A stretch of 64,000 nucleotides of DNA from Haliclystus octoradiatus. Taxonomy: Eukaryota > Cnidaria > Staurozoa > Stauromedusae > Haliclystidae. The stretch lies in contig OU744447.1 of assembly GCA_916610825.1 (NCBI GenBank), forward strand, positions 14,181,751-14,245,750. Direction: 5' to 3'. Below, one piece after another: positions 10,170 to 60,562 of the stretch (its first letter is position 1; the number at the start of each line of letters is the position of its first letter). The notes below the pieces were generated by a model. The model searched no databases, had not been told where the DNA came from, and saw nothing but the letters and a program-made list of their open reading frames with translations. Position numbers and translations under genes: made by a program.

Positions 10170-10186
10170 ATATAGAATATTCAATA

Positions 10187-14115: not shown

Positions 14116-14133
14116 ATCCCAGACCTGACACCA
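14116..14133 (-). promoter_or_regulatory. Gypsy primer-binding site (tRNA-Leu type)
   Basis: Directly after the 5' LTR, the minus strand reads TGGTGTCAGGTCTGGGAT. Apart from about three central mismatches this complements the 3' end of animal tRNA-Leu, so leucine tRNA is the likely primer. Confidence 0.75.
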
Positions 14134-30311: not shown

Positions 30312-32496
30312 TTACGTTTCTTTGACTGGTAGCCTAGCAACTTCCATTTTTACAATGTACCACATCTCAAGGTAGGAATCAAGTTTTAGGGAAATATCTG
30401 TCAGCTCGCCAATGTCGTGTTGCGTTGTTACGATAAAACTGGATGTACTACCGTGAGCCAGATATCGTCTATGGATATGTGAAATAAAATATAAAGTTAT
30501 GCTTGCCTGTGTGCAACCGTATCCGTGACAAACGTATCTTTTAAAGGAATCTTTACTTACCTCTCTAATTCGATAAATTTTGAACTATTTTTCTTTCCTG
30601 TCAACTCCACTGTAATCGGTGCATCTAAATCTGCAAATAAGCCTTTTCCAGTGTAGAAGGTTATTTTGTATTGCTCACCTAAAGACAAGATAGCAATAGG
30701 CATATAATATGTTGATGTACAATGATGTGCGTATCTTGCTACATATGTGCAAGATCTATACCATCCAAGTGGTCGCGGTCACTGCTGCTTGGATAATTAT
30801 GAAAAGACAAATCGCAGATGATAACATCATTTGAAGGAATCCTATCATATTGGATCTGAATGATGGCCCTAGAGAACAGCCTTTGTACGCAGTCAATTGA
30901 TTGCTAAATACAAGGGGGCCTTCTATGGCTGTGGCGAGGTGAACTTTCGAAAGTAACTCTCATCAAAGGTCACCTGTCCACAGTGGCCAGATAAAAAAAC
31001 TGGTAGTTAAACACTATTAGTTATATTATATCCTACAAACAGTTTAGTAGCTCATCTTACCACTGCAAAGCCACTTACACTTACCACTGAAGGGTTCTTC
31101 TGAGAGTGTTTCAAAATAGAATTTTTCAAGTGTGTTTGTTGTTGGTGTATCGATTGCAGGCGCACCCATCTTAGGACAACCATTGCTGCCGCATGTACTA
31201 CACATTCCTACGTTGTAATCTTCCCATGATTTACAAGGGTATGCTTGGAATGTTTCTGTTCGGTTGATTGATTCAATGTAAAGCAATATTGATCTGTAAT
31301 GACTGCATGCAACGATGTTGGCCATATCGAGATTTGCCTCTGAAATAAATGAGTTCAAAGATCATTGTTAGGCTATCCCTTGTAGGTTTACGTATTTCCA
31401 CATGTACTGCCCTTGTTATATTAGCTGACCTGGTCGCAAATCAGGACAGCCAGGCTGATATTTCCCACCGTTGGGATAAAAATCCATATGTCCCATTGGC
31501 TGCTCTACACCGAGACTGAATATTCCATTTAATCTTGAGTTTGTGTGGATGACGTCAACAAATCTGGCATCGGTTGGATCAAGGCGGACGTCGATGTGTT
31601 CATATTCGAAATATGGTGCGGCAGGGTCAAGTCCTATTAATTGAAAGAAAGACAAAATCAATTTATAATTGAAGATGGAAATGACATTAATTAATTGTTG
31701 CAGTCACCCAGCATCAGTATGAGATTCACCTGTAATTCTGCCAATTGTTACCCCACGGCGACGATAGTTCCTACCAACGTATGACATAGCATGAGCACCA
31801 AGGCTAAATGCGATCAAATGAAGTTGAGTGTAGTCTACTCCTTTGATGCCGTTGACTACATCAAGCAAATGAGTGATCTGTGCACCAACTAAACGAGCGT
31901 TACTGCAGGCAAAATGATAAGGAAATTTTGCCCCATTTCCCCATCCAACAATAAAAACGTTTATATCATCAGCATGGAGCAGGGCCTTAACGAAAGGAGC
32001 TATCCAAAACTGAGTCATCCTTTCTGCAAAGTAAGAAGCATTTATAATTCAGGTAACTGTGATGCAAAAGTGCTCTCGATTCGAAATCCAACCATCCATT
32101 TCTCTTACCTAAATAGCCATGCGTAACTACTACAGTTCTCTTTGATGAATCAAAATCAGAGTTTGTAATTGTTTCATTTTTCAAATCATTAATCACTTGT
32201 CCAGCAGTACGAAAATTTCGAGTGTAGAGAAGAAATCGTGTATCTACAGTAGCTGGAGATTGGGGCAGAGGAACAGTTGCACGGTGAAATGGATCATTAT
32301 CAGAAAAGCAGCCATAGACTTCGTAGCAAATGCTTCCCCCTGCAGAAAATGAACAACAAAACAGTATATAATATATACATTAACGAAGTACATAACATTG
32401 GTGTGATACAAAACATATGATATACATTGTGAACTTACCACTCACTAAAGAGTGAGTAAGCGATACTACGAGGAGAGTTGCTACTGCGAAGATCAT
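30312..32496 (-). CDS. Secreted pancreatic-lipase-family protein
   Basis: A triacylglycerol lipase or phospholipase A1-type secreted hydrolase. Seven minus-strand exons with consistent phases: 32496-32439, 32339-32109, 32023-31730, 31633-31430, 31339-31085, 30678-30561 and 30468-30312, about 438 aa. A signal peptide (MIFAVATLLVVSLTHSLVSG) is followed by ICYEVYGCFSD and the catalytic domain, with nucleophile Ser in AFSLGAH, Asp in GLDPAAPYF and His in ACSHYRS. The first Gly of the usual GxSxG motif is Ala. The lid between its two cysteines is about 17 residues, against 23 in human pancreatic lipase. Exons 5-7 encode a PLAT/LH2 domain. The frame stops at TAA 2 bp into a good GTAAGT donor, so either the protein ends about 27 residues early or a further exon exists. 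It converges on TM2D1 with about 290 bp between coding ends. Confidence 0.9.
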
Positions 32497-34276: not shown

Positions 34277-34648
34277 GGGAGATCCCAGTTGGCTGGCTGA
34301 TATCAATCATCAAATGAAGAAGAAAAGCAGCTTAGGACGATTGGCCTCTTTGAGGTGGAATATTCAAATGGTTTCATCAATTAAAAGTATAGTTTAATGT
34401 TAAATTACAAGTTATTGGATTCATTCGTTTATTATTACATTGAAGGAGACCTATATTGAGAATTGTCTTATCCTAAAATTTCAACATTGCTAATTGCCAA
34501 GTAATTGTGGTTGAATGTCAACATAACATTCTTGTTATCTAGCCTGATAATCTCACGAAGGACACTCCATACACTTGGCAGATGTAATACTTTTTAAAAA
34601 CTCATTATTATTATAATACCTGATTGAATAATCATCAGCTCTGTTATA

Positions 34649-37600
34649 ATGCCTTTCTTACAACCAACTTATTGGTCGAGGAATACTATGGAAAATCTGA
34701 CTGTGTATTGTATCGTTGCCTTTGTTGCCATTTTCAGTCAAACGCAAGGTAAGCCCGCTCGAGAATAAATAACATAATTATTTTAAATGGATTAAGTTAG
34801 AGAACATCGCAATTTATTCTTAAGTTAATAAGTAAAACAAGTCAAATTATATTAATTTAACTGGTGCCTTTTATCATCTTGTTATCGTAATATAGTTGCT
34901 GCGAAAATCACTGTAACTCTGTCGAAATAGCAACCGCTTTCAATGTTGAGAGTTGTTGGACGTTGGCAAAAGATAAAATGGTTAGCCTAATAACTCTGTA
35001 GGGAATGTAGCTCATCTAACTATAATGCCTTTATCGTTGAAAATTTAATTTGCTTGGAAAAATGCCGTTATGTCTGATTTTCAGATTGATACTGGCTTGT
35101 TAGGAATCTTTAAATGTTGAATGAAAGCCACTGCTTTTTGATTTATTGATGAACGGTCCATTGTCTGTGCGGCCATTTTTAGATTCCTCAGAGAGTCCAT
35201 TTTGCATTCCTTGCTTTCTTTTCAATGTTATTCAAACAATTGCACATTAAAATCAGGTAGCCTCACTTGTCTCTTAGCAACAAACTAACAGGTTAGACAT
35301 ACCACACAGGCCAAAACAATACAATTTCATCATCATCATCATTGATGGTATCCCTACATGAATTAAGTCTATGCAATCCACAAACAACACATTCTGAGTA
35401 AAAACTTAGACGTGAACTTTGCTCTGATAGCACCAGAAGCAGCACGGAAGGAGAAAACGAGAATGCATCAGAAATTACGAGCCGCTCGGCAAGTAATTTT
35501 CACCTTCGAGAGTATTCTCCTGGAGTGACTCAAGTGGTGCTATGAGAGCATAGTTCACGGAAAGTGTAAACTATTTGATTTAGAACATAACCAGCCCCAA
35601 TTTGTGACTGTTTGTTACGCCTTTTCAGAGCATTTGTTGATATTACAATCCGTGATTAAGTATGTAATTCTCCTATTTCGTGACATCACAATATAAGAAG
35701 GCTGAGTCGAGATATGTACACTTGCCTTGAAATTTTGAATCAATTCAAAGCCGTGAGGAAAAAATTAAAATAGGCAAATTGATATTTCTCTTCTTGAAAT
35801 TAAAAGAATGGATGCTTAACATCGTTTTCTGACATAATCATGGATTTTTATCTGACTGGGAAAAGGAAAGGAAATGTGTCTTACCTATAATTTGAAGAAT
35901 TTCGTAAAAAGCTGTGAACGTGAAGAAAGACATAAAACAATGAAAGATTTATTGACTAAATGTTGCTAATTGCTTATTAATTACGCTTTGCATGCGATTT
36001 AAAAGAGTAGATTGCAGTGGCGGCTTGTAGTATAAATAGTTGGTGGGGCAGTAGGGTTGGTGAGGGTGTCAAAGGCCCCCAAATTGTTCTAGTACTATCT
36101 ATATTGTATTTAATCTAGCTTATAATCATTTTCTAATTGATTTTGTAAATGGCTGTATGTAAGTGGAATTACTGTTGTGGTAATTCTATGTATTTTCCTT
36201 TCGTATACAATTGATTTGATGCCAGTACAACATTGTCATGGATAGTTGTAAATGACGCTTCTCACTTCTGTGAATAAGGCAAATTGTGTTCTGCACCAAA
36301 ACGCTATTGTTTCGCCATAGTCTGTCATGCGCACTAAGTGTCAAAGCCTCGATAACAAAAGCATATTTGGGGCATAGAGAATTTTCCCTAAGAATGCCAG
36401 ACCATTGTCAGAAATAGAAAGGATATTGTGAACATTTTGAATGAGCTGCAATGACAACATGGTTATATAATAGGTGTCTAATGTCTATTCATTAGGCAAA
36501 GGGATTTGTCTATAGAATCTGGCATGTGTCCTCGCAAAATAAAAATGGTTTGGCTGAAAATATTAGTTGTATACTAATACTAATATCTTATTTATAACAA
36601 AATTGGAGATTTATTTTGTTTTACAAGCTAAACAGTTACAAACTTGAAAAGAAGTAATTTACAAAATTTATTGATGGGTCGTTGCCCCGGTTGCCCCACT
36701 GTTAGAGCCACTACTGGCAGATTATTGATTTTATTTCAAATTTTTTAGAATGTTGCTAACCTACCTACAGCTTAGCCTGCATGCAGACAGACTTTTCCTC
36801 CGTATAATCCGTCTGCGTATTGGCGCCGAGTATCACATACTAAGTGTTTGTACTGAATTCATGTTGAATAAAATGTTCACCTAGTGTGGTTTCCTGTTAT
36901 TACTCAATTTCCTTTATTTTAAAATACTGGCCAATTGTTCATATATTTTATTAGCCAATCACAATTTACTGCCAAGAAAATGGCAGTGTAAAGAACAATC
37001 GGTACTCTAAATTTGGCGCTAATGCGCATACGGACTATACGAAGAAAAAGTCTGTCTGCATGCAGGCCACCTATAGCTAGGAACTTGCGAAAATTGGCCA
37101 TTAAAAGATGGGGGATGTATTAATGAAATGAAATTATGTTATGTTGTGTTTCCACAATTATAAATTCAGTAAAAATTTGGCAAATTGTTTTTGAATTGTT
37201 AATTTGTGCAAAATATTTCGATACACTTTGAACATGTTTGTTTCCTGGCTCAGATATTTCTCCTGCAAGCCATTTGATTTATTTTGAACAACTGGGAAAC
37301 TGCATAAACAGTAACTCAATTAAATTATAATGACTGTACAAATAGTCACTGTATTCGCTTTTTATTACTTTCTAGTTAATGCCATGTTTAAATAATTATT
37401 GATTGTTTGGTGTTTTCATAAATTTCTTGAAATCGACGGGGTCAAGCTCGGTTGTGGAGAAATGGCGTTATTGGTGTTAACCAATCAAATTGCAAGAATG
37501 AATCGTAGCAGATCCTCATTATGTTCTAAAAACTTTTGCTAAATGATTTATGTGCTTATCGCTGATGTGGTTGTTGTTAATTTTTGTGTCAAGCTTGGGT

Positions 37601-40600
37601 TGAAATCCTAAAATTCAACAAAATGGCATTGAGTTTTGCTTTGATATTATATTAAGGAGACAATAATACATTGTTAGACAATAATACAGGGAGGAACCCA
37701 GGAGAAGACAACAGAAATCACAACCGAGTGGCATGACAACGGCCGCAAGAAACAGGTTTCAAATTAGGCTGGATTGCGTTAAATTTCTGAAAAAAATAAT
37801 GAGGTATGCAGGCACGCATGTTGGCGACACGGTACAACCGTGCCAATTTCTGATTTAACTAATCCTACACAACTCCCTCTAACGAAGATTTCTTACAAGA
37901 CAGTGACTTTTGCTGTGTTAAAAACAAGTTCTACACCTAAAAACATTCAAAATGCCGGACCATGGAATTCAATATCAGCCCTGTCAGATGTGAAACTAAA
38001 TCAAATCACAAGCATTTGCACCATTAAACACTGTAACACAAATTGAAGGTTGTCTGTGAGCAACACAATTTTTCATGATTTAAATAAAGGTTTTAATTTA
38101 ATTTCAGCTTCTGCACCAGAAATCAAATGGCACTACGACAACACATCTCCAAACACATATTTCAATATCAGTTGTCATGGCAATAGCCCTGGAAAAATGA
38201 TTGCCAAATGGTCATCTGCATTATTCAATGTCTCAACCTATAACCAATATGATAATACATTGACATCAAACTCTTCATCGCTTGATTTGATATCAACATT
38301 AGCTATTAAAATAGAATTTGACAAACTTTTAGAAAGTGGATACTGTCAGATCAGTAGGAATGAAAACAATGTTATGACATGTCCATTTGAAGCAACTTGC
38401 TACATGACATCTGTTCACAATGATACAGCTGATGGTACATACTCCACTACATCAAATATTTTATTGAAATGGCAGATACCTACATTGCCGGCCATAGAAG
38501 TCACACGTAAAGCAACATCTACTTGTGCTTTTACATGGCCCGAAATCAAAGCGGATGCTAGTGATTACATTCCAATTGCTTTATTCTCATTGAAAATAGA
38601 TTTACATCAAAACACAAAGCATTTACGTAGAAATACACTTTCAATTGATAGCAAAGGTTTTCAGTACCGTGATTTGACACCGTATACATTATATAATATC
38701 TCTCTTCATATGATACTTGATTTTAATGGTGATGTATGGCAATCTCAATCAAAGTTTGCTATAGTTCGTACCTTGGCTTTAGGTAAGATATTTTAATGAT
38801 ACTTTGATACTAAATTACAATCCATTTTAAACTTTTTAATACAGTGTAGCCCACTTAAGAGTGCACATCAAAATTGCCAACGATTTGCATTGCATTTATT
38901 CAAATTTGCACTTATCTCAAATTGTTTATAAAAGATTTGACAAGAAAATAGTTGATAGGGTTTCAGATTCAGGTTGCAGAAAATCCTGAATTTCACTTAA
39001 ACAGGTTACACTGTAATATCTATATCCAGGAAGTACTTTCATGTGATTATTACAGTCAAACCTGTTATAACAGTCACCTCTATACAACAGCCACCTGTCC
39101 ATAGTGGTCACTCCTGCAATGTCTAAAATAGTATTTTCTATTGAACCAAACCTGTATATAAGGCCACCTGTCTATAATGATCAATTTATCTACCTCTCGT
39201 AGCTGGCTGTTATATACAGGTTTCACTGTACCATGTTCATAAATTTGACATATTTTTACTTTTGAACATTTTATCAACATGTCACGCTACTTGGAAAGGC
39301 GACCCTGGCAATGACATAGACATACTGTACTATGTTTGCAATGATTAGTAATTGTTACAATCTGTATTCGATTTCAGTTCCGAGAACATCCCCTTCATTT
39401 GTTGATGGCCTTGAAACTGGAATTGACTTTGTTGTTGCCAAATGGCAGGTACGTCATCAAGTAAATTGAATTCAATATTAATATCTCTATTCAATAATAA
39501 TTGTGCCAAACCATGTAGGTAACAGCCAACATCTGATAGCTTACATGATGAGATCGGCATATCAAACAACTCACTCTGTAGCAAGTCAAATCAAATTATT
39601 GTGAATAGCAAAGAAGATCTTTATTTTTGTAGAACTGTTTATTGTGTAGAGCAATTATTTAAAAAAAATTTTTTACGTAACGTAACATGGAATTGTTTCT
39701 GGAATTATAAATCCAATTTGTGAACAAACTACACTGTTTTTGTGTATCTATCCATTTGTCACTGGTTAGTACAGTAATTCTATTTTGTTGCATTTTTAAT
39801 TAAGGGGAATCACGGATGATAAACAAACTCTCTAAATTTGATGTTGAAATACTGTAAGATTCTGAAGGGGTATCAAAGGTTTTGAACTTGAACTCAATTT
39901 TTATGAAATTAATTCAAAATAAAACCAAGTTTGAAATGTAACACTGGTAATTATAAAAATAATGTTTCAGGATACACCATTACCAGTACAGAATGGGATG
40001 TTAGCATCAGTTCACTTGAGTTATGAACGACTTACCTATGGCGAAAAAAATCTTGAAGATTTGGGCTTACCTGGCCATTCAATGAATACAGTTGTTGATG
40101 CAACGAAAGGCACTGTTCTTGTGTTATCTAATCTGTTACCATGGTCACAATATATACTCACTCTCAAAGCATGTAATGATGATGGCTTTTGTGACTCGAA
40201 GGGGTCACAAACAACTGTGAATACCAAAGAAGGAGGTATAAATCTTACTACATAGTACAATTACTTACATAGTACAATCAGTGCAATTCAGCTGAAATAC
40301 AATTGAACTGAAATGATTTGTTGTCAAATCGTTGTTGCTAAGTTCACTGTAATTATGTGGACAAAGTAGAATTTCTTAGAAGTACCTTTACTAGAAGACG
40401 TAATGGCACTACCAACACCAAAACCATGAAAATGCCATGAAAGTGTTGTGAAAATATCATAAAAATGTAAAATAATGAAAATCATAAATTATGTAAGCCA
40501 TGAAAACATCCATATTCACGATATTAAAATATTAAAATGGGAAATTTTACGATTTTTTTCATTGTTTTAATGTCAGTGGTATGGTGAACTGTAAATACAA

Positions 40601-41965
40601 GTATGATGTAATGGTAACAGTAAATTTGATGAGTTAATAACACATTATATTGTCTGAAATATGCAAAGTGTCAAGATACATTTTCAATCATGACAATATG
40701 CAAAATTTAAATAAGTAGTCAGAGTTCGCAATAACCTAGTTTCATATAATTGTATCTGTGTCTTGACTGGGAAAAGGTAACAGAGTAAAAACAATGCCAT
40801 GCACAATCAATTACAAATTGCACCTAACCACATGATTTTAATCTAATTAATTATCTGTCATTAAATCCTTTCTTATGTTTTAAAATTTAGTGCCATCTGG
40901 TGTACCACTCAATTTAACACTTGTTCATTCTGGTTCCAATTACATAAAGATCTCCTACACATCGCCTGTGTTCCTTGAAAGAAATGGCAACATTATTGGT
41001 TTCAAATATAGAATTGGGAGCTTTTCTGGTGGAGAAGACGCTTCTTATCGACCAAAGCGAGATGTCTCTAGTTTTGAGATGGAGAAAACTTTTAATGATC
41101 TTCAGCCATATTCTTATTTCAATATCAGTGTGGCTGCCGAAACAATGGCTGGAGTGGGACCTTATTCACCTACATTAAATGTGAAAACGCTTGAAGGATG
41201 TATGTATTTTGTATAATTGTATATGTATACAGCTGAATCCGTCAATAACGGTATCCAAGGGAGACAAACTATTTTACCAACTTTTGCAGAATCTGTTATC
41301 AGGGGAATATTCAGCAAAGCTTGACTGTAAATTAATCAGTATCAGGCATTTTTGCTTACTGTTATTTAGATAATACCGTTAAAGCCGGAACTGTTTGTAA
41401 AGGATTCTACTGTATTTATGAAATTATCAAATTTTCCCTTAAAATGTGATTTGTTGAAGCCACTTTGGGCTATACAAATTGGAGTCTATGGGCACCATTA
41501 AGTTAAATTGCTTTTCATATAATTTTTCTGCTTTTAGGCTAGAAGAGTAAAATACTTTGTGAAATATTTTAAAAAGGTGTATTTGATTATTTCATAAATG
41601 CGATATGGAAATTATTGTACATGATTCTATCTGAGGCATCCAAAATTTGCCACATCGGCATATGATTCTATATCACTGATTGTGGTGACTGCCATCTATG
41701 TATGTATGATGTTGATAGTAGATAATCTTGTTGTCTTTCCGCAGCACCATCTATGCCTATTCATTCAACATTAATGCGTCTACCAAGCGATATGTCATGT
41801 ATGCTGCAATGGGAGAAACCAATCACTCCAAATGGTATTATAAGTGGCTACGTCATCAAATCATTTTGTAATGATCAACCGTATGATGAAACAGAAGTTT
41901 CTGCTGACAGATTCACATTGACATCCGGCCTTAATTGCAATGCATCAAGCTGTATTTCCTTTCAG
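34649..41965 (+). CDS. Redundant 5' part of the receptor phosphatase gene (exons 1-6)
   Basis: Exons at 34649-34748, 38108-38782, 39378-39448, 39971-40235, 40891-41199 and 41745-41965 encode the signal peptide and most of the fibronectin III ectodomain. They match, as far as I compared, exons 1-6 of the full gene at 43210-57556. No membrane or phosphatase exons follow before the gap. If the duplication were real this would be a truncated gene. I judge it an unmerged contig end. Confidence 0.85.
36015..36716. mobile_element. hAT-like MITE in phosphatase intron 1 (also 44576-45277)
   Basis: Termini CAGTGGCGGC and 'gagccactactg' are inverted, followed by 'tggggca' on both sides. The flanks GTAGATTG and GCAGATTA could be a decayed 8-bp duplication. 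No transposase. The second copy reflects the segment duplication, not transposition. Confidence 0.6.
36775..37067. mobile_element. TIR element in phosphatase intron 1 (also 45336-45628)
   Basis: Inverted ends of about 50 bp start GCCTGCATGCAGACAGACTT and pair with the right end. 293 bp in total, non-coding. Confidence 0.75.
38842..39013. mobile_element. pogo/Tigger-like MITE, family A (also 47403-47574)
   Basis: TA-flanked ends CAGTGTAGCCCACTTAAG and 'cttaaacaggttacactg'. A relative with ends CAGTATACCCTCTTAAG lies at 42059-42226, with its duplicate at about 50620-50787. The TA duplication and CAGT termini suit Tc1/mariner-superfamily pogo elements. Confidence 0.65.
39053..39228. mobile_element. 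pogo/Tigger-like MITE, family B (also 47614-47789)
   Basis: TA-flanked ends CAGTCAAACCTGTTATAA and 'tatacaggtttcactg'. Relatives occur at 51983-52163 (inverted orientation, right end eroded) and 53130-53237 (internally shortened). Four intronic copies in one gene show local abundance. Confidence 0.7.
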
Positions 41966-42058
41966 GTATGAGTAATTAATATAATTCATCATTTAAATTT
42001 GTCATTTTCAATTCAATTTCATTTTGAAGTGACAAGTAATGAATTTTATTTGCTTATA

Positions 42059-42226
42059 CAGTATACCCTCTTAAGTGAAAGTAAGAATTGCCAACGATTT
42101 CAGTTGCATTTGTCCGAAATTGCTTAGCAAACATTTGACCAGAAGATAGTTTATAGGTTTTCAGATTCAGGCTGCAGATAAGCGGGAATTTCACTTATCC
42201 GAATTGCACTTAAGCGGGTTACACTG
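42059..42226. mobile_element. pogo/Tigger-like MITE, family A, second member
   Basis: 168 bp, TA-flanked, ends CAGTATACCCTCTTAAG and 'cttaagcgggttacactg'. It lies in the intron after exon 6 and shares the internal 'attgccaacgattt' and 'ttcagattcagg' with the element at 38842. Confidence 0.65.
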
Positions 42227-42637
42227 TAATAGAAACCCCTTAACTAATTGAATTCATTATTTGAATACGGTAGTGTCATCTAAATGATTCCAATCCTTTC
42301 TCATTTGAAATTAATGTGATACATGAAGTTAGAATGAGAGTCAAGAATGAAAATGAAGAATTATGCACTGGACCGAGAACTGGTGTGGAACAATCCCACA
42401 ATTATCATTATTATTTTTATATTATATGATACTGTAAGTTATTAATGTTAGGTGCTAATACAGTACAATACAACATCAATGATAACTTGCATTTAGATTT
42501 CAATATCATTAACGAAAGAAGGTATAACTACCTCTTGTGAAGAAGGCTGTGTATGGTTAAACTGTGTTATCAGCGAATAAATTTGATTGCATTAATACAT
42601 TAGCTCAGTTCATATATTTTAGCATAACTCCACTTTC

Positions 42638-42837
42638 NNNNNNNNNNNNNNNNNNNNNNNNNNNNNNNNNNNNNNNNNNNNNNNNNNNNNNNNNNNNNNN
42701 NNNNNNNNNNNNNNNNNNNNNNNNNNNNNNNNNNNNNNNNNNNNNNNNNNNNNNNNNNNNNNNNNNNNNNNNNNNNNNNNNNNNNNNNNNNNNNNNNNNN
42801 NNNNNNNNNNNNNNNNNNNNNNNNNNNNNNNNNNNNN
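42638..42837. other. Assembly gap, exactly 200 N
   Basis: The round length indicates a scaffold gap of arbitrary size. It separates the two copies of the duplicated segment. Confidence 0.98.
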
Positions 42838-45800
42838 GGAGATCCCAGTTGGCTGGCTGATATCAATCATCAAATGAAGAAGAAAAGCAGCTTAGGACGA
42901 TTGGCCTCTTTGAGGTGGAATATTCAAATGGTTTCATCAATTAAAAGTATAGTTTAATGTTAAATTACAAGTTATTGGATTCATTCGTTTATTATTACAT
43001 TGAAGGAGACCTATATTGAGAATTGTCTTATCCTAAAATTTCAACATTGCTAATTGCCAAGTAATTGTGGCTTGAATGTCAACATAACATTCTTGTTATC
43101 TAGCCTGATAATCTCACGAAGGACACTCCATACACTTGGCAGATGTAATACTTTTTAAAAACTCATTATTATTATAATACCTGATTGAATAATCATCAGC
43201 TCTGTTATAATGCCTTTCTTACAACCAACTTATTGGTCGAGGAATACTATGGAAAATCTGACTGTGTATTGTATCGTTGCCTTTGTTGCCATTTTCAGTC
43301 AAACGCAAGGTAAGCCCGCTCGAGAATAAATAACATAATTATTTTAAATGGATTAAGTTAGAGAACATCGCAATTTATTCTTAAGTTAATAAGTAAAACA
43401 AGTCAAATTATATTAATTTAACTGGTGCCTTTTATCATCTTGTTATCGTAATATAGTTGCTGCGAAAATCACTGTAACTCTGTCGAAATAGCAACCGCTT
43501 TCAATGTTGAGAGTTGTTGGACGTTGGCAAAAGATAAAATGGTTAGCCTAATAACTCTGTAGGGAATGTAGCTCATCTAACTATAATGCCTTTATCGTTG
43601 AAAATTTAATTTGCTTGGAAAAATGCCGTTATGTCTGATTTTCAGATTGATACTGGCTTGTTAGGAATCTTTAAATGTTGAATGAAAGCCACTGCTTTTT
43701 GATTTATTGATGAACGGTCCATTGTCTGTGCGGCCATTTTTAGATTCCTCAGAGAGTCCATTTTGCATTCCTTGCTTTCTTTTCAATGTTATTCAAACAA
43801 TTGCACATTAAAATCAGGTAGCCTCACTTGTCTCTTAGCAACAAACTAACAGGTTAGACATACCACACAGGCCAAAACAATACAATTTCATCATCATCAT
43901 CATTGATGGTATCCCTACATGAATTAAGTCTATGCAATCCACAAACAACACATTCTGAGTAAAAACTTAGACGTGAACTTTGCTCTGATAGCACCAGAAG
44001 CAGCACGGAAGGAGAAAACGAGAATGCATCAGAAATTACGAGCCGCTCGGCAAGTAATTTTCACCTTCGAGAGTATTCTCCTGGAGTGACTCAAGTGGTG
44101 CTATGAGAGCATAGTTCACGGAAAGTGTAAACTATTTGATTTAGAACATAACCAGCCCCAATTTGTGACTGTTTGTTACGCCTTTTCAGAGCATTTGTTG
44201 ATATTACAATCCGTGATTAAGTATGTAATTCTCCTATTTCGTGACATCACAATATAAGAAGGCTGAGTCGAGATATGTACACTTGCCTTGAAATTTTGAA
44301 TCAATTCAAAGCCGTGAGGAAAAAATTAAAATAGGCAAATTGATATTTCTCTTCTTGAAATTAAAAGAATGGATGCTTAACATCGTTTTCTGACATAATC
44401 ATGGATTTTTATCTGACTGGGAAAAGGAAAGGAAATGTGTCTTACCTATAATTTGAAGAATTTCGTAAAAAGCTGTGAACGTGAAGAAAGACATAAAACA
44501 ATGAAAGATTTATTGACTAAATGTTGCTAATTGCTTATTAATTACGCTTTGCATGCGATTTAAAAGAGTAGATTGCAGTGGCGGCTTGTAGTATAAATAG
44601 TTGGTGGGGCAGTAGGGTTGGTGAGGGTGTCAAAGGCCCCCAAATTGTTCTAGTACTATCTATATTGTATTTAATCTAGCTTATAATCATTTTCTAATTG
44701 ATTTTGTAAATGGCTGTATGTAAGTGGAATTACTGTTGTGGTAATTCTATGTATTTTCCTTTCGTATACAATTGATTTGATGCCAGTACAACATTGTCAT
44801 GGATAGTTGTAAATGACGCTTCTCACTTCTGTGAATAAGGCAAATTGTGTTCTGCACCAAAACGCTATTGTTTCGCCATAGTCTGTCATGCGCACTAAGT
44901 GTCAAAGCCTCGATAACAAAAGCATATTTGGGGCATAGAGAATTTTCCCTAAGAATGCCAGACCATTGTCAGAAATAGAAAGGATATTGTGAACATTTTG
45001 AATGAGCTGCAATGACAACATGGTTATATAATAGGTGTCTAATGTCTATTCATTAGGCAAAGGGATTTGTCTATAGAATCTGGCATGTGTCCTCGCAAAA
45101 TAAAAATGGTTTGGCTGAAAATATTAGTTGTATACTAATACTAATATCTTATTTATAACAAAATTGGAGATTTATTTTGTTTTACAAGCTAAACAGTTAC
45201 AAACTTGAAAAGAAGTAATTTACAAAATTTATTGATGGGTCGTTGCCCCGGTTGCCCCACTGTTAGAGCCACTACTGGCAGATTATTGATTTTATTTCAA
45301 ATTTTTTAGAATGTTGCTAACCTACCTACAGCTTAGCCTGCATGCAGACAGACTTTTCCTCCGTATAATCCGTCTGCGTATTGGCGCCGAGTATCACATA
45401 CTAAGTGTTTGTACTGAATTCATGTTGAATAAAATGTTCACCTAGTGTGGTTTCCTGTTATTACTCAATTTCCTTTATTTTAAAATACTGGCCAATTGTT
45501 CATATATTTTATTAGCCAATCACAATTTACTGCCAAGAAAATGGCAGTGTAAAGAACAATCGGTACTCTAAATTTGGCGCTAATGCGCATACGGACTATA
45601 CGAAGAAAAAGTCTGTCTGCATGCAGGCCACCTATAGCTAGGAACTTGCGAAAATTGGCCATTAAAAGATGGGGGATGTATTAATGAAATGAAATTATGT
45701 TATGTTGTGTTTCCACAATTATAAATTCAGTAAAAATTTGGCAAATTGTTTTTGAATTGTTAATTTGTGCAAAATATTTCGATACACTTTGAACATGTTT

Positions 45801-48800
45801 GTTTCCTGGCTCAGATATTTCTCCTGCAAGCCATTTGATTTATTTTGAACAACTGGGAAACTGCATAAACAGTAACTCAATTAAATTATAATGACTGTAC
45901 AAATAGTCACTGTATTCGCTTTTTATTACTTTCTAGTTAATGCCATGTTTAAATAATTATTGATTGTTTGGTGTTTTCATAAATTTCTTGAAATCGACGG
46001 GGTCAAGCTCGGTTGTGGAGAAATGGCGTTATTGGTGTTAACCAATCAAATTGCAAGAATGAATCGTAGCAGATCCTCATTATGTTCTAAAAACTTTTGC
46101 TAAATGATTTATGTGCTTATCGCTGATGTGGTTGTTGTTAATTTTTGTGTCAAGCTTGGGTTGAAATCCTAAAATTCAACAAAATGGCATTGAGTTTTGC
46201 TTTGATATTATATTAAGGAGACAATAATACATTGTTAGACAATAATACAGGGAGGAACCCAGGAGAAGACAACAGAAATCACAACCGAGTGGCATGACAA
46301 CGGCCGCAAGAAACAGGTTTCAAATTAGGCTGGATTGCGTTAAATTTCTGAAAAAAATAATGAGGTATGCAGGCACGCATGTTGGCGACACGGTACAACC
46401 GTGCCAATTTCTGATTTAACTAATCCTACACAACTCCCTCTAACGAAGATTTCTTACAAGACAGTGACTTTTGCTGTGTTAAAAACAAGTTCTACACCTA
46501 AAAACATTCAAAATGCCGGACCATGGAATTCAATATCAGCCCTGTCAGATGTGAAACTAAATCAAATCACAAGCATTTGCACCATTAAACACTGTAACAC
46601 AAATTGAAGGTTGTCTGTGAGCAACACAATTTTTCATGATTTAAATAAAGGTTTTAATTTAATTTCAGCTTCTGCACCAGAAATCAAATGGCACTACGAC
46701 AACACATCTCCAAACACATATTTCAATATCAGTTGTCATGGCAATAGCCCTGGAAAAATGATTGCCAAATGGTCATCTGCATTATTCAATGTCTCAACCT
46801 ATAACCAATATGATAATACATTGACATCAAACTCTTCATCGCTTGATTTGATATCAACATTAGCTATTAAAATAGAATTTGACAAACTTTTAGAAAGTGG
46901 ATACTGTCAGATCAGTAGGAATGAAAACAATGTTATGACATGTCCATTTGAAGCAACTTGCTACATGACATCTGTTCACAATGATACAGCTGATGGTACA
47001 TACTCCACTACATCAAATATTTTATTGAAATGGCAGATACCTACATTGCCGGCCATAGAAGTCACACGTAAAGCAACATCTACTTGTGCTTTTACATGGC
47101 CCGAAATCAAAGCGGATGCTAGTGATTACATTCCAATTGCTTTATTCTCATTGAAAATAGATTTACATCAAAACACAAAGCATTTACGTAGAAATACACT
47201 TTCAATTGATAGCAAAGGTTTTCAGTACCGTGATTTGACACCGTATACATTATATAATATCTCTCTTCATATGATACTTGATTTTAATGGTGATGTATGG
47301 CAATCTCAATCAAAGTTTGCTATAGTTCGTACCTTGGCTTTAGGTAAGATATTTTAATGATACTTTGATACTAAATTACAATCCATTTTAAACTTTTTAA
47401 TACAGTGTAGCCCACTTAAGAGTGCACATCAAAATTGCCAACGATTTGCATTGCATTTATTCAAATTTGCACTTATCTCAAATTGTTTATAAAAGATTTG
47501 ACAAGAAAATAGTTGATAGGGTTTCAGATTCAGGTTGCAGAAAATCCTGAATTTCACTTAAACAGGTTACACTGTAATATCTATATCCAGGAAGTACTTT
47601 CATGTGATTATTACAGTCAAACCTGTTATAACAGTCACCTCTATACAACAGCCACCTGTCCATAGTGGTCACTCCTGCAATGTCTAAAATAGTATTTTCT
47701 ATTGAACCAAACCTGTATATAAGGCCACCTGTCTATAATGATCAATTTATCTACCTCTCGTAGCTGGCTGTTATATACAGGTTTCACTGTACCATGTTCA
47801 TAAATTTGACATATTTTTACTTTTGAACATTTTATCAACATGTCACGCTACTTGGAAAGGCGACCCTGGCAATGACATAGACATACTGTACTATGTTTGC
47901 AATGATTAGTAATTGTTACAATCTGTATTCGATTTCAGTTCCGAGAACATCCCCTTCATTTGTTGATGGCCTTGAAACTGGAATTGACTTTGTTGTTGCC
48001 AAATGGCAGGTACGTCATCAAGTAAATTGAATTCAATATTAATATCTCTATTCAATAATAATTGTGCCAAACCATGTAGGTAACAGCCAACATCTGATAG
48101 CTTACATGATGAGATCGGCATATCAAACAACTCACTCTGTAGCAAGTCAAATCAAATTATTGTGAATAGCAAAGAAGATCTTTATTTTTGTAGAACTGTT
48201 TATTGTGTAGAGCAATTATTTAAAAAAAATTTTTTACGTAACGTAACATGGAATTGTTTCTGGAATTATAAATCCAATTTGTGAACAAACTACACTGTTT
48301 TTGTGTATCTATCCATTTGTCACTGGTTAGTACAGTAATTCTATTTTGTTGCATTTTTAATTAAGGGGAATCACGGATGATAAACAAACTCTCTAAATTT
48401 GATGTTGAAATACTGTAAGATTCTGAAGGGGTATCAAAGGTTTTGAACTTGAACTCAATTTTTATGAAATTAATTCAAAATAAAACCAAGTTTGAAATGT
48501 AACACTGGTAATTATAAAAATAATGTTTCAGGATACACCATTACCAGTACAGAATGGGATGTTAGCATCAGTTCACTTGAGTTATGAACGACTTACCTAT
48601 GGCGAAAAAAATCTTGAAGATTTGGGCTTACCTGGCCATTCAATGAATACAGTTGTTGATGCAACGAAAGGCACTGTTCTTGTGTTATCTAATCTGTTAC
48701 CATGGTCACAATATATACTCACTCTCAAAGCATGTAATGATGATGGCTTTTGTGACTCGAAGGGGTCACAAACAACTGTGAATACCAAAGAAGGAGGTAT

Positions 48801-51198
48801 AAATCTTACTACATAGTACAATTACTTACATAGTACAATCAGTGCAATTCAGCTGAAATACAATTGAACTGAAATGATTTGTTGTCAAATCGTTGTTGCT
48901 AAGTTCACTGTAATTATGTGGACAAAGTAGAATTTCTTAGAAGTACCTTTACTAGAAGACGTAATGGCACTACCAACACCAAAACCATGAAAATGCCATG
49001 AAAGTGTTGTGAAAATATCATAAAAATGTAAAATAATGAAAATCATAAATTATGTAAGCCATGAAAACATCCATATTCACGATATTAAAATATTAAAATG
49101 GGAAATTTTACGATTTTTTTCATTGTTTTAATGTCAGTGGTATGGTGAACTGTAAATACAAGTATGATGTAATGGTAACAGTAAATTTGATGAGTTAATA
49201 ACACATTATATTGTCTGAAATATGCAAAGTGTCAAGATACATTTTCAATCATGACAATATGCAAAATTTAAATAAGTAGTCAGAGTTCGCAATAACCTAG
49301 TTTCATATAATTGTATCTGTGTCTTGACTGGGAAAAGGTAACAGAGTAAAAACAATGCCATGCACAATCAATTACAAATTGCACCTAACCACATGATTTT
49401 AATCTAATTAATTATCTGTCATTAAATCCTTTCTTATGTTTTAAAATTTAGTGCCATCTGGTGTACCACTCAATTTAACACTTGTTCATTCTGGTTCCAA
49501 TTACATAAAGATCTCCTACACATCGCCTGTGTTCCTTGAAAGAAATGGCAACATTATTGGTTTCAAATATAGAATTGGGAGCTTTTCTGGTGGAGAAGAC
49601 GCTTCTTATCGACCAAAGCGAGATGTCTCTAGTTTTGAGATGGAGAAAACTTTTAATGATCTTCAGCCATATTCTTATTTCAATATCAGTGTGGCTGCCG
49701 AAACAATGGCTGGAGTGGGACCTTATTCACCTACATTAAATGTGAAAACGCTTGAAGGATGTATGTATTTTGTATAATTGTATATGTATACAGCTGAATC
49801 CGTCAATAACGGTATCCAAGGGAGACAAACTATTTTACCAACTTTTGCAGAATCTGTTATCAGGGGAATATTCAGCAAAGCTTGACTGTAAATTAATCAG
49901 TATCAGGCATTTTTGCTTACTGTTATTTAGATAATACCGTTAAAGCCGGAACTGTTTGTAAAGGATTCTACTGTATTTATGAAATTATCAAATTTTCCCT
50001 TAAAATGTGATTTGTTGAAGCCACTTTGGGCTATACAAATTGGAGTCTATGGGCACCATTAAGTTAAATTGCTTTTCATATAATTTTTCTGCTTTTAGGC
50101 TAGAAGAGTAAAATACTTTGTGAAATATTTTAAAAAGGTGTATTTGATTATTTCATAAATGCGATATGGAAATTATTGTACATGATTCTATCTGAGGCAT
50201 CCAAAATTTGCCACATCGGCATATGATTCTATATCACTGATTGTGGTGACTGCCATCTATGTATGTATGATGTTGATAGTAGATAATCTTGTTGTCTTTC
50301 CGCAGCACCATCTATGCCTATTCATTCAACATTAATGCGTCTACCAAGCGATATGTCATGTATGCTGCAATGGGAGAAACCAATCACTCCAAATGGTATT
50401 ATAAGTGGCTACGTCATCAAATCATTTTGTAATGATCAACCGTATGATGAAACAGAAGTTTCTGCTGACAGATTCACATTGACATCCGGCCTTAATTGCA
50501 ATGCATCAAGCTGTATTTCCTTTCAGGTATGAGTAATTAATATAATTCATCATTTAAATTTGTCATTTTCAATTCAATTTCATTTTGAAGTGACAAGTAA
50601 TGAATTTTATTTGCTTATACAGTATACCCTCTTAAGTGAAAGTAAGAATTGCCAACGATTTCAGTTGCATTTGTCCGAAATTGCTTAGCAAACATTTGAC
50701 CAGAAGATAGTTTATAGGTTTTCAGATTCAGGCTGCAGATAAGCGGGAATTTCACTTATCCGAATTGCACTTAAGCGGGTTACACTGTAATAGAAACCCC
50801 TTAACTAATTGAATTCATTATTTGAATACGGTAGTGTCATCTAAATGATTCCAATCCTTTCTCATTTGAAATTAATGTGATACATGAAGTTAGAATGAGA
50901 GTCAAGAATGAAAATGAAGAATTATGCACTGGACCGAGAACTGGTGTGGAACAATCCCACAATTATCATTATTATTTTTATATTATATGATACTGTAAGT
51001 TATTAATGTTAGGTGCTAATACAGTACAATACAACATCAATGATAACTTGCATTTAGATTTCAATATCATTAACGAAAGAAGGTATAACTACCTCTTGTG
51101 AAAGGCTGTATGTAAACTGTGTTATCAGCGAATAAATTTGATTGCATTAATACATTAGCTCAGTTCATATATTTTAGCATAACTCCACTTTCTGTTAA
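42838..51198. repeat. Second copy of the 8.36-kb duplicated segment
   Basis: It begins at the gap in mid-sequence (equivalent to 34277) and continues without a break into the rest of the phosphatase gene. This copy should be taken as the true locus. Confidence 0.9.
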
Positions 51199-54100
51199 TG
51201 ATAATGCATTTGCTATATTTTTATCTTATGTGACTGATGTATTGTTTACTTTATGTTGTTTTAGGTCCTTGCAAAGACTATTGTTTATGGAAAGCCATCA
51301 CCAATTCTATATGCACGTATGTTATAGTTATCTTAAACTGAGTAATTAGAGCTGATAAACTGATTTACTATTGCAATAGTTATGGCCAGGGTTTGATACA
51401 ATGTTTGGATTCCAGAATTGAAAGTCCTGGAAGGCTATCCCAAATTCAGAAGGAAGAGGAGAAAATTAAATGTATTGCAGTTTTCACAAGCAGAAGGAGA
51501 AGAAGAACTTCTTTCTTTTCTGTAGAAGATGAATGATTACGTGCAATGATCATATTTTTATGATAATAAATGGACAATAACCTCTAAATAAAACTGTGAA
51601 TTCGTTTGCATGATGTAATTAACCTGAAAAACTTTGATAGCAAAATTAGAATCCCGAAAAGAAAAATATTTTATCGAACCCTGGTTCTGGCTATATTTAA
51701 TAATATCAAAATTCCATCCCTGCACATGCGTGTGGATGTAGAACCCTCTACGAAATGATAATAACGCTTTATCGTTTATACAGTCATGGTATCAGAACTA
51801 ATTTTGACATTGAGTAATCTTTAAGGATAATAAGAATTAAGCATTAAGAATATTAATGATTACATTAGATATATGTGTGTATTTAAGTACTTAAGAATAT
51901 ATTTATAGTAATAGTAAGTACTAATACTACCATAATAATAGTAACGCAATGCTAATACACAATACATACACATTGCACTATACAGTGTGACCTGTATATA
52001 ACAACCAGCTACAAGAGGAAGATAAATTGGCCATTATATGCAGGTGGCATTTATCTACATAAATTTTTCAATAGAAAATACTATTTTTGACTTACGAAGG
52101 GTGACGACCACTATTGACATGTGACTGCTGTATAGAGGTGACCGTTATAACAGGGTTTGACTTTATACTATACTTGCAGTAGTACTAAATACTATGTATT
52201 TATGCTAGATTATAGTTTTTAATTGAATTAGTTTATCTACAAACATATTTATCTATTATAACTCTAATTTTACTTTCTAGGTGACATTATTGATTTTTTG
52301 CCAAAGTTCAAACCAACAATTACAGTTGTGAAGGGAATTGATTATAATTTATATGCTTTTATTGGTATTGCATGTTTATTATTGCTATTGATCATTATTT
52401 TACTGGTGGCGTTTTGCATCTATAAAAAGTAAGATATTAAAGCAAATATTTATTCATTGGTGTTGATGAATGATGATTGATTGATAATTAAATCCTTCTG
52501 ATGTTTGTATTCGTTTTGTAGGCGTTACACTAATAAACTTGTTCGTAACCATATTCTCATGCATTCCATTCCATCTCCGTTACATTTGAAAGATTTTGGA
52601 ATTTCAGATGTTGTTCGTTCCCATGCTGATCTCTATGAACCACGAGAGACTGATGCACTAACAACAAATCCTGAAACAACTGGTAGGAATCCCCTTTACA
52701 TTAATATCCTACATACTGTTATATACGCTATGGTCTTAGTTGTGAATATCATACTCAATTGTTCTGTTGTTATTGATTTATCAAGCGTTGTTGTACAGTG
52801 ATGATGAGAGCGGCCATAGAGCTATCCCAGTGGAAGAATTTCCTCGTTACATGGAACAGAAATTAAGAGATGATCACCCTTTCAAGCACGAGTACAAGGT
52901 AATATATAATATAAACACATCAAACAATTTTTCTCTCTCAACCCCGGGGATAAGCCAGGTGTGGGGCCAGATTAATGGGATTAGTATATCCCATTAATGA
53001 TGCAAGATTCTAGTACTAAAATGATTTTATTGTACAGTATAAGTTTTGGGATATAGAAGTAAGTTGACTATCAAACACCTGACAATTCTCCGCTAACCAT
53101 GTTACGCCCCATTACATCACTCCATGTTACAGTCAACCCTGTTACAGCTGTCGCCTCTATACAGTGGTCACCTGCATACAGTGGTCAATTTATCTACCAT
53201 TCATAATTTATGCTTTATACACTATACAGGATGACTGTACTTGATTTACTATTCTATATTGAGTTTTCAATTTTCAATTTTTTCGATTCATCATACGATT
53301 CATTCATCACTCAATTTGAAATTCTTCACAAAAAGACTTTTTTATTTGCTTACTAAATTGGCAACTCAAAATTCAAAAATCGATTAGATCTATATATTTG
53401 AATGAAATTCAGTTGAAAAGAGAGACTAAATTCCCATTTTATTCCCATTTCTCACAACTGTTTTTGACAAATGTTCGTTTCTTACTTCCAAAATATCTAT
53501 TATCCTATTCCCGTTTCTTAGGACCCCCTTTATGCTCCAGTATATGTCTTTGAATGTAAACAAATTATCTGACAATAAGTGTGACAATTTGATGGTACTG
53601 TATATTGAAACAGAGAGAATTGAAAGCTGGAAAATGCTATTCATGGGATATTGCTGATCGGCCTGAGAACAAACCAAAAAATCGTTACACTAACATCGCT
53701 GCATGTAAGTCATTCTTAATCAATTACCCAAGTTCTCCGATCAATATGATATACCATAGGAGTTTATTCACTGTCTTTTATACTCTCTCTAGATGATCAT
53801 TCGCGTGTAATTCTTCGTTCTGATTCTGGCAAACGAAGGAATGAATCTGATTATTTTAATGCCAATCACATCGAGGTAAAATAATAATGTATTATCATTC
53901 ACCATGATCTTATAATAATGATTTAATTTTATTCTACGTGATGATAATTATATGGTGCTGTTTGATTTTAGGGATATTGTCAAGGCACAAAAACAAGCTA
54001 TATCGCATGTCATGGTACTTAAAATAGAATAATTACATGTCAAAATGATTCCAACTAAACACATAATTGGATTTTTATTTTGAGTTATTTTTTTAATCAT

Positions 54101-57100
54101 TTTTAGGTCCTACGGAAAGTGTTGTTCCCGACTTTTGGCGTTTAATTTGGCAAGAGAAAATTGCTGTTATTGTCATGCTGACTAATGTTGAAGAAAGGGG
54201 CAAGGTAGGTGACATCTGACACGATTTTATTTGGTTACAGAGCGGTCCGTTCTCCGTTCACACTATTCCATGATGTAATAACTATACGTGTTTAATGTAG
54301 GCAAAGTGTTATCAGTATTGGCCTTCATTTGGTACGATTAAGAGTGGAAATATGACTATCACTGCTATGGGTCAAGATATCACTGTTGATTATAAAATAA
54401 GAACATTTGAATTGTCCAAGGTAAGCCTTGAAAGGGAAATCAACTATCTCAAAGGGCAGTGTATACATTTAGTTAATGCTGTATCAATTAGGTTGCTTCA
54501 CTCTTATTCGTATGTTTTCCATTTTTAGGCGGGAGTGAAAGAGAATCGTATCATCAAACAGTTCCACTTTGTCAGCTGGCCTGATCATGGCGTACCTGAC
54601 CGTCCAACGCCGTTGATTTCATTAAGGCGTCGCGTGCGTGCATTTTATGATGGCAGTGCACCAATGCTCGTTCACTGTAGGTAAGATCACATACCAGGTG
54701 GTTATTACTAGGTGCATTTCTTCTCGTGTACTTAACCAGAGTATTATAGGATCGGAGTCAAAAACTCCGACTCTTGCTATGGCTTTTTATTGGAGATTTC
54801 TTAGATATTTTGGAGTCGGAGTCAAATGCTCCGATTAGAACTTTTTCCGTACACTGAATTTGAAAGTTCTGGATCCGTACATCTCTGCTGACAACTCTTA
54901 TGACATGTTATTTTTTTGTTGATTAGCGCTGGTGTTGGCCGGACTGGTTGTTTCATATTGGTTGATGCTGAAATCGAAAGGATCACAGAGACTGGATACG
55001 TTGATGTATTTAATTACTTACAGTATGTGCGCACTCGTCGAATTGACATGGTACAAACTTTGGTAAGGCACCTTATTTTTATCAATCTCTACGATATGTT
55101 CTAATTTCGTTTTCGCAATTGATACATAAATTAAAATTTTCTTTAATGATCATTCAGGCACAATATAAATTTGCACACAACGTTCTTCTTGAGTATATCA
55201 CGTGTGGTTGTACCGAGATTCCTGCGGCTGATTTTCAAAAAAGGCTCAATTCATTGAAAAGAGGTTCTGGCTTACGGGATGAGTACGAGGTAAAGTAATG
55301 CAATTCACATGTGACTTCATTTTATAAGTCTATGCAATATTATTACATATGTTGTTATTTACTGACATTAACTATATACGTCTCTCTCTCAATATATGTA
55401 GACACTTACAAAAACAACAAGTATCGCGAAAGAGCAAGGTAAATTTACATTTAGTTAAACTTAAATTTACATAAGAAGTAATGGCAAACGCATGTTCTAA
55501 TCAACGTTTCTCTTTACCTTTCATTGCAGCCAATTTTAACCGCGTTTTCTTACAAGAAGGTCAACGAATATCTTACGTCGACGCTTTCTTTGTTGACGTA
55601 TGTTACGTTATTTTTAATCAACATAACTACTGTCAACGTTTCGTGATATTATCCCAGATGTTGTAACGGTTGTATTGTGTTTTGTAGGGCTACAAACGGA
55701 ACGATGCATTTATTGTGTGCAGTGCTCCTGATCAGAATGACATTGCTCGTTTCTGGAAGATAGTTGTTGAACAACAGTGTCACACCATTGTGTCTTTGCA
55801 TCGATTGAAGGAGAACGGAAAGGTAACAGATAGTACCCAACATCAATGGCTTATCTTATGGGCCTTATGACCCTAACAAATTTCATCTAGAAAGACATCC
55901 GAAGAGCCTAAGTGGACCACCATTGTGGATTGCACAGGGGTGTACAAAATACGTTTGTGTCTGCTGCCAAAATGTTCCATCTCAAAGTGCCTGCAACTTG
56001 TTTATTGGGGCCTACCATATTCATTCCGAAAGTCTGTAGAAATTCTATTGTTCTCAAAATGTGCCTGCAACTGGCAGTCAAACGACCCCCATTCTATTGA
56101 GCACTATTGGTATCCATCTAGCTAAGACTGTGGTTAGCTAAGTGAATGCCTACTAATGTCTGTGTTTGATTATGTTTCATTAGTTTCATTGTCAGTATTG
56201 GCCCAGTCCAAATGAACAGATATCAGTTGGTGATCAGTCTGTTGTGTTATTATCTGAACATCGTGAACCAGAAATGATCATCAGAAAATTCAAAGTTCTC
56301 AACTCAAATGTATGTTGTACTCTTTACTTATATAAATTTTAATGAAAAAGTCAGTACCAACAATTTTGAAATTCTATTTTTATTTTGTTCAAAGTAAAAA
56401 AATAAAAAATTGAATTAAATTTCAAAATTATTGGTATTGACTTTTTCATTGAAAATAATAAGTAAATGACTTCTTATGCGAATACTTTTATGATGTAGGA
56501 TCATAATATATATTTTTTCAATCTACTTGAACTTCATTACATTTGATTGTCTTTAAAATTAGGATAATTTCCACATTCAACAATTCCAATACATCGATTG
56601 GCCTGATAAGGGAATTCCATCAAGCAGATCGAATCTTCTTAAATTAATGTCATTGGTTGAAAAATCACAACAACAATTTGGTAACGGACCAATCATGGTG
56701 CAATGCAGGTACGGTCACGATTTCTATTGAGTTTGATTGATTGATGTTCACGGCAGTCATTGTCTTCAATCTCAATTAGTAATCAACACTACTTGAATCT
56801 TCATCACAAGTTAAACAGTGCTCTGTGAATTTGCTTGAGATGTTAGAGGCCTCTCTAACTTTAAGAACCGCATCATCAGCAATCCTATTTAGTTTTGAAT
56901 GGCTTTCTCTTCTTGTTGGAAATAAATTTTGATTAAGATCGATTTCATCATCATCAATTCATGATGTTATGTGATTTAAAACTCAATTACATATCCCAAA
57001 TTGACCATGAAGTTTCCATAAGTAAATGAGTAATCGAGACGGTACCCTCAGTACAGGATGTTGAAAATAATCTAGCGCAAATGTTTAATTTATCAGAGTG

Positions 57101-57556
57101 CAATCAAACATTAAAAGAGAGGGCAACTCTTAAAATGGTTCAACGATTTCTTTACGTAGCTGATTAGGGGAACTGTATCATACCTTATAGTCTATTGAGA
57201 TTTTCAATAAATGTAATGATATGTTGTTGTGTTTTTAGTAATGGTGTTGGCCGTAGCGGTACATTCATTTCCATTTATAATTCAACTGATCGACTCAAAA
57301 CAGAGCAACTCATCGATGTACTCCAATGTGTTCGAGCCATTCGCGCCAATAGACCAATGGCCGTTGAGAGCTTTGTAAGTGTTACTTTTTAATGGGGACA
57401 AGGGGATAACCAAAGACATCTTGAATCTGATTTTTGTATATCTTCTTTGTGTTTTAGGAACAATACAATTATATTTATAGCATGATCTCAACTTATCTTG
57501 AAGCATTCCAGACATATTCAAACTTTGAACAAACAAATTTAACCTTACCACATTGA
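43210..57556 (+). CDS. Receptor-type protein tyrosine phosphatase, FN3 ectodomain, two PTP domains
   Basis: A type I membrane phosphatase that removes phosphate from tyrosine on cytoplasmic substrates. I assemble 25 exons with consistent phases, about 1238 aa. Exons 1-6 are the copy-1 coordinates plus 8561; later exons start at 51265, 52281 (membrane helix), 52522, 52786, 53614, 53793, 53972, 54107, 54301, 54529, 54927 and 55158, then 55402, 55530, 55688, 56184, 56563, 57239 and 57458. A signal peptide precedes about four or five fibronectin III-like units with many N-glycosylation sites. The helix (FIGIACLLLLLIIILLVAFC) is at about residues 587-606. D1 has KNRYTNI, WPDHGVP and HCSAGVGRTG (about residue 900). 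D2 keeps WPDKGIP and CSNGVGRSG but has FNRV for KNRY and ES for QT. Closest to the K/M/T/U (R2B) group by eye. The least certain exon is the one starting at 52786. Confidence 0.9.
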
Positions 57557-59142: not shown

Positions 59143-60562
59143 ATGAGATCACCAAGGTGGACTGACTGGTTTGTGGTTGTTGCTGTTGCAGCCATGGTTT
59201 ACATCGGTAAGTCATCAAAATATATTGCTTATAAATATTATGATTGGCTTATCAGGTAAATTGTAAATCATTTGAATGGCTTAAAGAAGATAATTTATTC
59301 AAAGATAATACAACATGTCACGTGTTTCAAACGCTAACGATTACCTGTTAATTGTTAGCTCAATATCTTTCGCAGGATCTTGTACGAAGGCCGTAAACTC
59401 CTGGGGGGGTGTATCCATCCAATTAAGATTTTGAGAAGAATTTCAGGCAATTCTGAGACGTACAATTGCAAACCTTCGTGCGATTTTGAAAGTAGTGAAG
59501 TACTGAAGCTCCCAAATACGTAAATACCACGCCCATTGTGTTGGGCAAAACTACAAACACCCCTCGGTCAGAAACATGTAGTTACGGCCGTGCCTATCCG
59601 TTGAGAATATAACCGTCTTTATCTTTATTTTTCAACGCAGAGATCAAATTAGACACCGGCTGTCACGATACGATAGAACAGAGTCCTTTGACATCTATTG
59701 GTTTCATAACAGATCGAAACTATCAATTAATTAATAGAGATGAAGTCTTAGTCATCGGTACACAACCGAACCGTAAAGGTAAACGTTATATATAGCACAT
59801 TCTCGTTTCTATCCTACATGGACTACGCTTCATCACATTATGACTGTAACGTATATATTGTCTCGTTTCTACATTCTAGCTTTGATATCAATCGGCATAC
59901 CAACTGTAGTCCGTGAGTATAACTCGAAACAGACAATCTACGTGCTTCAAACCATTCATAGTCTTCTAGACCAATTAAACGATGAAGAACTCAAACAAAT
60001 TAAAGTCATCGTATTTGTCAGTGATCTTATCGAAGAAAAGCGGCAACTCCTGATCGACAGGATACAGCAAGATTTAAAACGTTTTATCGAATATGGAGTG
60101 ATTGACGTAATTAAAGCCCCTGAGCGTTACTACAGACAACTACGGAATCTGCCTCTTAATTTTGGCGACAGAGAAACGAAGGTAGCATGGAGATCTAAGC
60201 AAAACCTTGACTATGCGTTTCTAATGAAATACGCTAGCTTCAATGGAGAATATTACATGCAACTTGAGGATGATGTATCAGCTCATAAAGGCTATCTAAC
60301 AGCTATACAACAGACTATATTACAGGCAGCTTATAAAGACGTTGATTGGATTACAATTAGCTTTTCAAAATTAGGCTATATAGCTAAACTGTATAAGCGA
60401 AACGTAGTGGATACAGTGTCTGACATTTTAATGGCTTTATATTATGAGATGCCCTGTGACTGGGTCATCCCTCATCTCTTTCATCGTTATGGAGTCATCA
60501 TTGTAACAGGTACAGACCTCTTTGATCATAAAGGTGCCCAATCCTCATCGGCGGGCACGTAA
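59143..60562 (+). CDS. MGAT4-like beta-1,4-N-acetylglucosaminyltransferase
   Basis: Related to Golgi GlcNAc-transferase IV, which adds a beta-1,4 GlcNAc branch to the alpha-1,3 mannose arm of N-glycans. Exons: 59143-59206, 59641-59778 and 59880-60562. Exon 1 gives a short cytoplasmic tail and signal anchor (WFVVVAVAAMVYIG), as for a type II Golgi enzyme. Exon 3 holds the catalytic core: SIGIPTVVREYNSK, IVFVSD, ERYYRQL, WRSKQNLDYAFLM and the metal-binding motif YYMQLEDDVSAHKGYL, then DWVIPHLF and LFDHKGAQSSSAG. The frame stops right after that last block, so the C-terminal domain of vertebrate MGAT4 (535 aa) is missing. The stop overlaps a possible donor (GTAATA after 60558), so another exon is possible. 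As read, about 294 aa. Confidence 0.85.

Follow-up and report, generated by a model that had tools for sequence, protein, structure and literature searches.

Does the genome of the stalked jellyfish Haliclystus octoradiatus carry a tandem duplication in a receptor phosphatase gene, or has one locus been assembled twice? The question is raised by a window of 64,000 nucleotides (the whole stretch of DNA analysed here; assembly GCA_916610825.1, contig OU744447.1, positions 14,181,751 to 14,245,750 of the forward strand), in which two nearly identical sequences of more than 8 kb face each other across a run of Ns. A sequence-only reading of this DNA had already suspected an artefact, and we have examined the geometry of the repeat, the differences between its copies, the gene that it holds and the sequence at its edges.

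Geometry of the repeat

Comparison of the two sides of the gap with each other (blastn, local alignment) returned a single match, between 34278-42637 and 42838-51192. The features that define the locus are as follows.

34278-42637, plus strand: overlap copy 1, the final 8360 nt of the left contig, abutting the N run (blastn of both gap sides)
42638-42837, no strand: scaffold gap of exactly 200 N, the sole N run of the window
42838-51192, plus strand: overlap copy 2, the opening 8355 nt of the right contig (blastn of both gap sides)

The final base of copy 1 directly precedes the N run and the first base of copy 2 directly follows it. The arrangement is a dovetail, as the artefact model demands: the overlap opens with the first base of the right contig and closes with the last base of the left one. 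The sequence-only reading, which had the copies stopping and starting exactly at a 200-N gap, described this correctly; its limits of 34277-42637 and 42838-51198 hold as a statement of near-identity and need trimming, the start of copy 1 being placed 1 base too far left and the end of copy 2 six bases too far right. When the window was compared with itself, the longest of the ten listed matches of at least 100 nt, the overlap aside, measured 234 nt (matches lying entirely in the first 10 kb or so, a zone of tandem repeats, were left unlisted), and chance is therefore no issue for a match of 8.36 kb.

Near-identical kilobase copies at contig ends on either side of a gap, free of haplotype-type substitutions, resemble a homotype false duplication in the terms of the Vertebrate Genomes Project, and here both copies do lie at contig boundaries with a gap between them. 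As described in Rhie 2021, such duplications often sit at contig boundaries and have about the length of the reads; an overlap of 8.36 kb would suit reads of 10-20 kb, if such were used here. A genuine tandem duplication is recognised by a copy-copy junction inside one contig, and at this locus the junction is the 200-N gap itself. The geometry alone is nevertheless not proof, because a real tandem duplication whose junction had fallen in the gap would, by simple reasoning, give the same dovetail, and the 200 N are probably a placeholder that does not fix the true size of the gap.

Differences between the copies

In a gapped alignment the copies show 99.916% identity, with 8354 identical columns, no mismatch and seven gapped bases, which BLAST divides into five gap openings and a global aligner groups into four. 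Compared letter by letter without gaps, at the limits of the sequence-only reading, the copies fall out of register and give 233 mismatches in 8361. The differences are the following.

43071, plus strand: a C present in copy 2 only, at base 234 of the right contig (alignment)
42541-42557, plus strand: three 2-base insertions in copy 1, six bases in all, 80-96 nt from where the left contig ends (alignment)

The three insertions are placed at 42541-42542, 42548-42549 and 42556-42557, the exact placement being ambiguous. The earlier observation that the differences lie near contig ends was thus borne out. Of random pairs of positions, 0.07% lie as close as these with one at each end of the overlap, and 0.3% have both members within 234 nt of any end (both post hoc). 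Position 43071 is close to the end of the right contig, yet its counterpart lies about 8.1 kb inside the left one, and either copy could hold the presumed error.

The 8354 aligned bases take in introns and intergenic sequence, and the lack of any substitution among them sets the divergence below about 0.036% (95% limit). Real divergence usually yields more substitutions than indels. If indels make up 15% of changes, which is our own assumption, the probability of four indel events and no substitution is about 5e-4, or about 0.02 when the differences are counted as two clusters.

These figures bear first on the possibility that one locus is represented by both of its parental haplotypes, one after the other, that is, on a heterotype false duplication (or haplotypic duplication), which we regard as very unlikely. 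Such a duplication would have the same gap-and-overlap layout, with both copies on one scaffold, and the relevant parts of Ko 2022 name haplotype divergence as the major source of false duplications in their assemblies, the homotype being the minor type and the heterotype mostly an order of magnitude commoner. The allelic substitutions by which a heterotype is known are, however, absent here (0 in 8354 bases, a result that has a probability of 2e-4 at a heterozygosity of 0.1% and of 7e-19 at 0.5%). Two haplotypes would then require a local run of homozygosity, in which they would be alike and the distinction itself fades. Homotype duplications are defined by the lack of haplotype-specific variants, approximated here by the lack of substitutions (0/8354); an overlap of the same haplotype is therefore favoured over two haplotypes. 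Of the earlier proposal of two overlapping contigs (or haplotypes) set end to end, the contig overlap is supported by the dovetail, the absence of substitutions and the end-near indels, and the haplotype option is disfavoured.

The same figures bear on a tandem duplication that is genuine and very recent, the junction lying inside the gap. The near-identity of the copies is compatible with a recent event or with gene conversion. This explanation nonetheless needs a coincidence of a very young event, a contig break at the junction and differences made only of indels near the ends; moreover, in the part of Ko 2022 that treats the matter, a gap between true duplicates was not found. We consider it very unlikely.

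The repeat holds one half of a receptor phosphatase gene

The gene at this locus was read from the following frames.

34688-34765, plus strand: candidate first coding exon with a signal-peptide-like hydrophobic N-terminus (translation, by eye)
38047-38793, plus strand: longest open frame of the ectodomain half, unmatched by Pfam at E 0.1; recurs unchanged at 46608-47354
39935-40252, plus strand: weak FN3-like exon (DSCAM C-terminal FN3 E 0.0045, fn3 E 0.038, each short of the curated cut-off); recurs unchanged at 48496-48813
40884-41213, plus strand: FN3 exon (Pfam fn3 E 1.4e-07, above the cut-off); identical at 49445-49774
41726-41968, plus strand: weak FN3-like exon (E 0.012, short of the curated cut-off); recurs unchanged at 50287-50529
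52268-52429, plus strand: open frame with a transmembrane-like hydrophobic stretch (by eye; sole Pfam match a weak TMEM132_C, E 0.078, below the cut-off), outside the overlap
54097-55101, plus strand: first tyrosine-phosphatase domain, intron-split (Pfam Y_phosphatase, splice letters, phmmer), outside the overlap
56563-57389, plus strand: second tyrosine-phosphatase domain, intron-split (Pfam Y_phosphatase in 2/2 frames tried), outside the overlap

The four ectodomain frames scanned against Pfam thus comprise one FN3 above the cut-off, two weak ones and one unmatched, and every one of them (4/4) has an identical twin in copy 2. The candidate signal-peptide exon, recognised by eye only, would place the start of the gene within the overlap. 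Further downstream, Y_phosphatase was found by Pfam in four of the five open frames tried between 54097 and 55295, above the cut-off in three. The first active site, HC-SAGVGRTG, is formed in frame across an intron: read by eye, the exon ends in ...CAC TGT AG before GTAAG and resumes after TTAG with C GCT GGT GTT GGC CGG ACT GGT. A conceptual join of this domain finds its best matches among solved structures in LAR/PTPRF and PTPRS (phmmer, best E 6.3e-104).

The locus thus contains what distinguishes a receptor-type tyrosine phosphatase, namely extracellular repeats, a membrane segment (by eye) and a phosphatase domain with HCX5R, and it resembles the members with two catalytic domains in its FN3-type ectodomain, its membrane-like segment and its two phosphatase domains. 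As a difference from such genes, the four ectodomain frames scanned, which cover part of the ectodomain, gave no match to an immunoglobulin domain.

The membrane-like segment was found only on the 3' side of copy 2, as were the two phosphatase domains. A tandem duplication of the phosphatase gene, as the repeat had been labelled, is therefore too broad a description: what is repeated in the assembly is the FN3-type ectodomain half, the exons of the enzyme lying outside. Since the phosphatase half is outside the repeat, the locus minus one overlap copy reads as a single, ordinary gene for a receptor-type tyrosine phosphatase, as pieced together from separate frames. If both copies stay, copy 1 ends at the gap as an ectodomain fragment with neither anchor nor enzyme. 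If the duplication were genuine, copy 1 would be either a truncated gene (an FN3 ectodomain lacking anchor and phosphatase) or a complete one that had lost its 3' half in the gap. In the case of a real and very young partial duplication, the extra ectodomain exons could yield a secreted FN3 decoy of the receptor tyrosine phosphatase, a reading to which we give hardly any credence.

An element of about 180 nt, possibly a MITE, is present in both copies (39051-39230 and 47612-47791) and has an inverted relative of 81% identity at 51981-52165, downstream in the same gene.

Edges of the overlap and the rest of the window

Within the window, no match at E 1e-10 other than the overlap itself touched the 400 bases around its outer edges or beside the gap edges, and no shared bases were seen at the hypothetical duplication breakpoints when the letters were read by eye. 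Edges devoid of repeats and of shared breakpoint bases are what arbitrary read ends would look like.

Two possible causes of a contig break were considered and set aside: repeats at the overlap edges, of which the window held none at E 1e-10, and purine or pyrimidine runs, the longest of which was 17 in the overlap vs 13 and 18 in the tested flanks, nothing notable. The overlap contains no long purine or pyrimidine run that might lower coverage, and no cause for the break was seen in it beyond the imperfect overlap. A scan for tRNA genes with the bacterial code found none.

Several other features occur in the window. A lipase gene (31047-32048, minus strand; Pfam Lipase in 3/3 frames tried) lies about 2 kb upstream of the overlap and is divergent from the phosphatase gene, and further exons encode a metazoan-type ATP synthase delta subunit (19144-19503; ATPD_C_metazoa E 2.9e-10), as suits an animal genome, and an MGAT4 glycosyltransferase (59783-60559; E 2e-54). 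A Gypsy-type LTR retrotransposon occupies 9929-14317 on the minus strand. Its 11253-14042 frame holds reverse transcriptase and RNase H, and the 10190-11296 frame, which overlaps it, has integrase matches close to the cut-off; these frames lie between two direct repeats of 184 nt that are 99.5% identical, which suggests a young insertion. Reverse-transcriptase-like open frames, LINE-like by eye, are found in pieces at 27080-28137 (in the 27521-27895 frame that was scanned, RVT_1 E 4.1e-07). A repeat-rich zone includes a tandem array at 4038-5239 (195-nt unit, about six copies) and arrays of the GTGCACGCC-type motif at 3332-3459 (on the other strand), 6329-6939 and 9050-9468.

One locus probably assembled twice

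We propose, with a probability that we put at roughly 0.88, that the 8.36-kb repeat is the same-haplotype overlap of two contigs set end to end, i.e. a homotype false duplication. Support for an artefact comes from a combination of observations: (i), the copies show no substitution; (ii), they differ by indels only; (iii), these are located toward opposite ends of the overlap; (iv), the repeat leaves out the phosphatase half of the gene and (v), the edges match nothing else in the window at E 1e-10.

The events may have been as follows. The final part of one contig and the opening part of the next would both have been built from one stretch of one chromosome. Indel errors, few in number and left uncorrected near the ends, would have made the 8.36-kb overlap imperfect, and the assembler would have kept the contigs unmerged. 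A long-range scaffolder would then have put them in the correct order, with 200 N between them as a placeholder. The true locus would run along the left contig as far as the overlap, through the overlap once and on into the right contig, and would hold a single receptor-type tyrosine phosphatase gene. The geometry, the identity, the kind of differences and the place of the phosphatase half outside the repeat are observed; the assembler, the read type, the scaffolder and the status of the differences as errors are inferred.

A gap of 200 N is probably the default of the scaffolder YaHS. One assembly made with YaHS has 54 gaps, each of 200 Ns, a pattern that suits this window by analogy, whichever scaffolder was used here; the passages searched of the YaHS paper itself contain no stated gap size. 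As for the failure to merge, a review of assembly states that hifiasm and HiCanu accept perfect overlaps only; with an assembler of this kind, the indels would be a sufficient reason and more than incidental errors near contig ends. Overlapping contigs are also on record in an analysis of phased human assemblies, which treats them as artefacts of assembly and leaves their origin unclear. Against the proposal stand the minor share of the homotype in Ko 2022 and the fact that a homotype example figured in Rhie 2021 stemmed from a program bug, since fixed.

The repeat is thus probably not a real feature of the genome and represents an ordinary assembly case, which can be flagged cheaply from sequence only: a terminal, near-exact overlap across a gap of round size, with differences made only of indels. 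For the receptor phosphatases of this animal, the extra partial copy is probably not real. Gene predictors run on this scaffold could nevertheless call an extra, truncated FN3 gene beside the receptor phosphatase. Counts of gene copies and of domain architectures would then come out too high, and the truncated gene could be taken for a secreted paralogue of the ectodomain.
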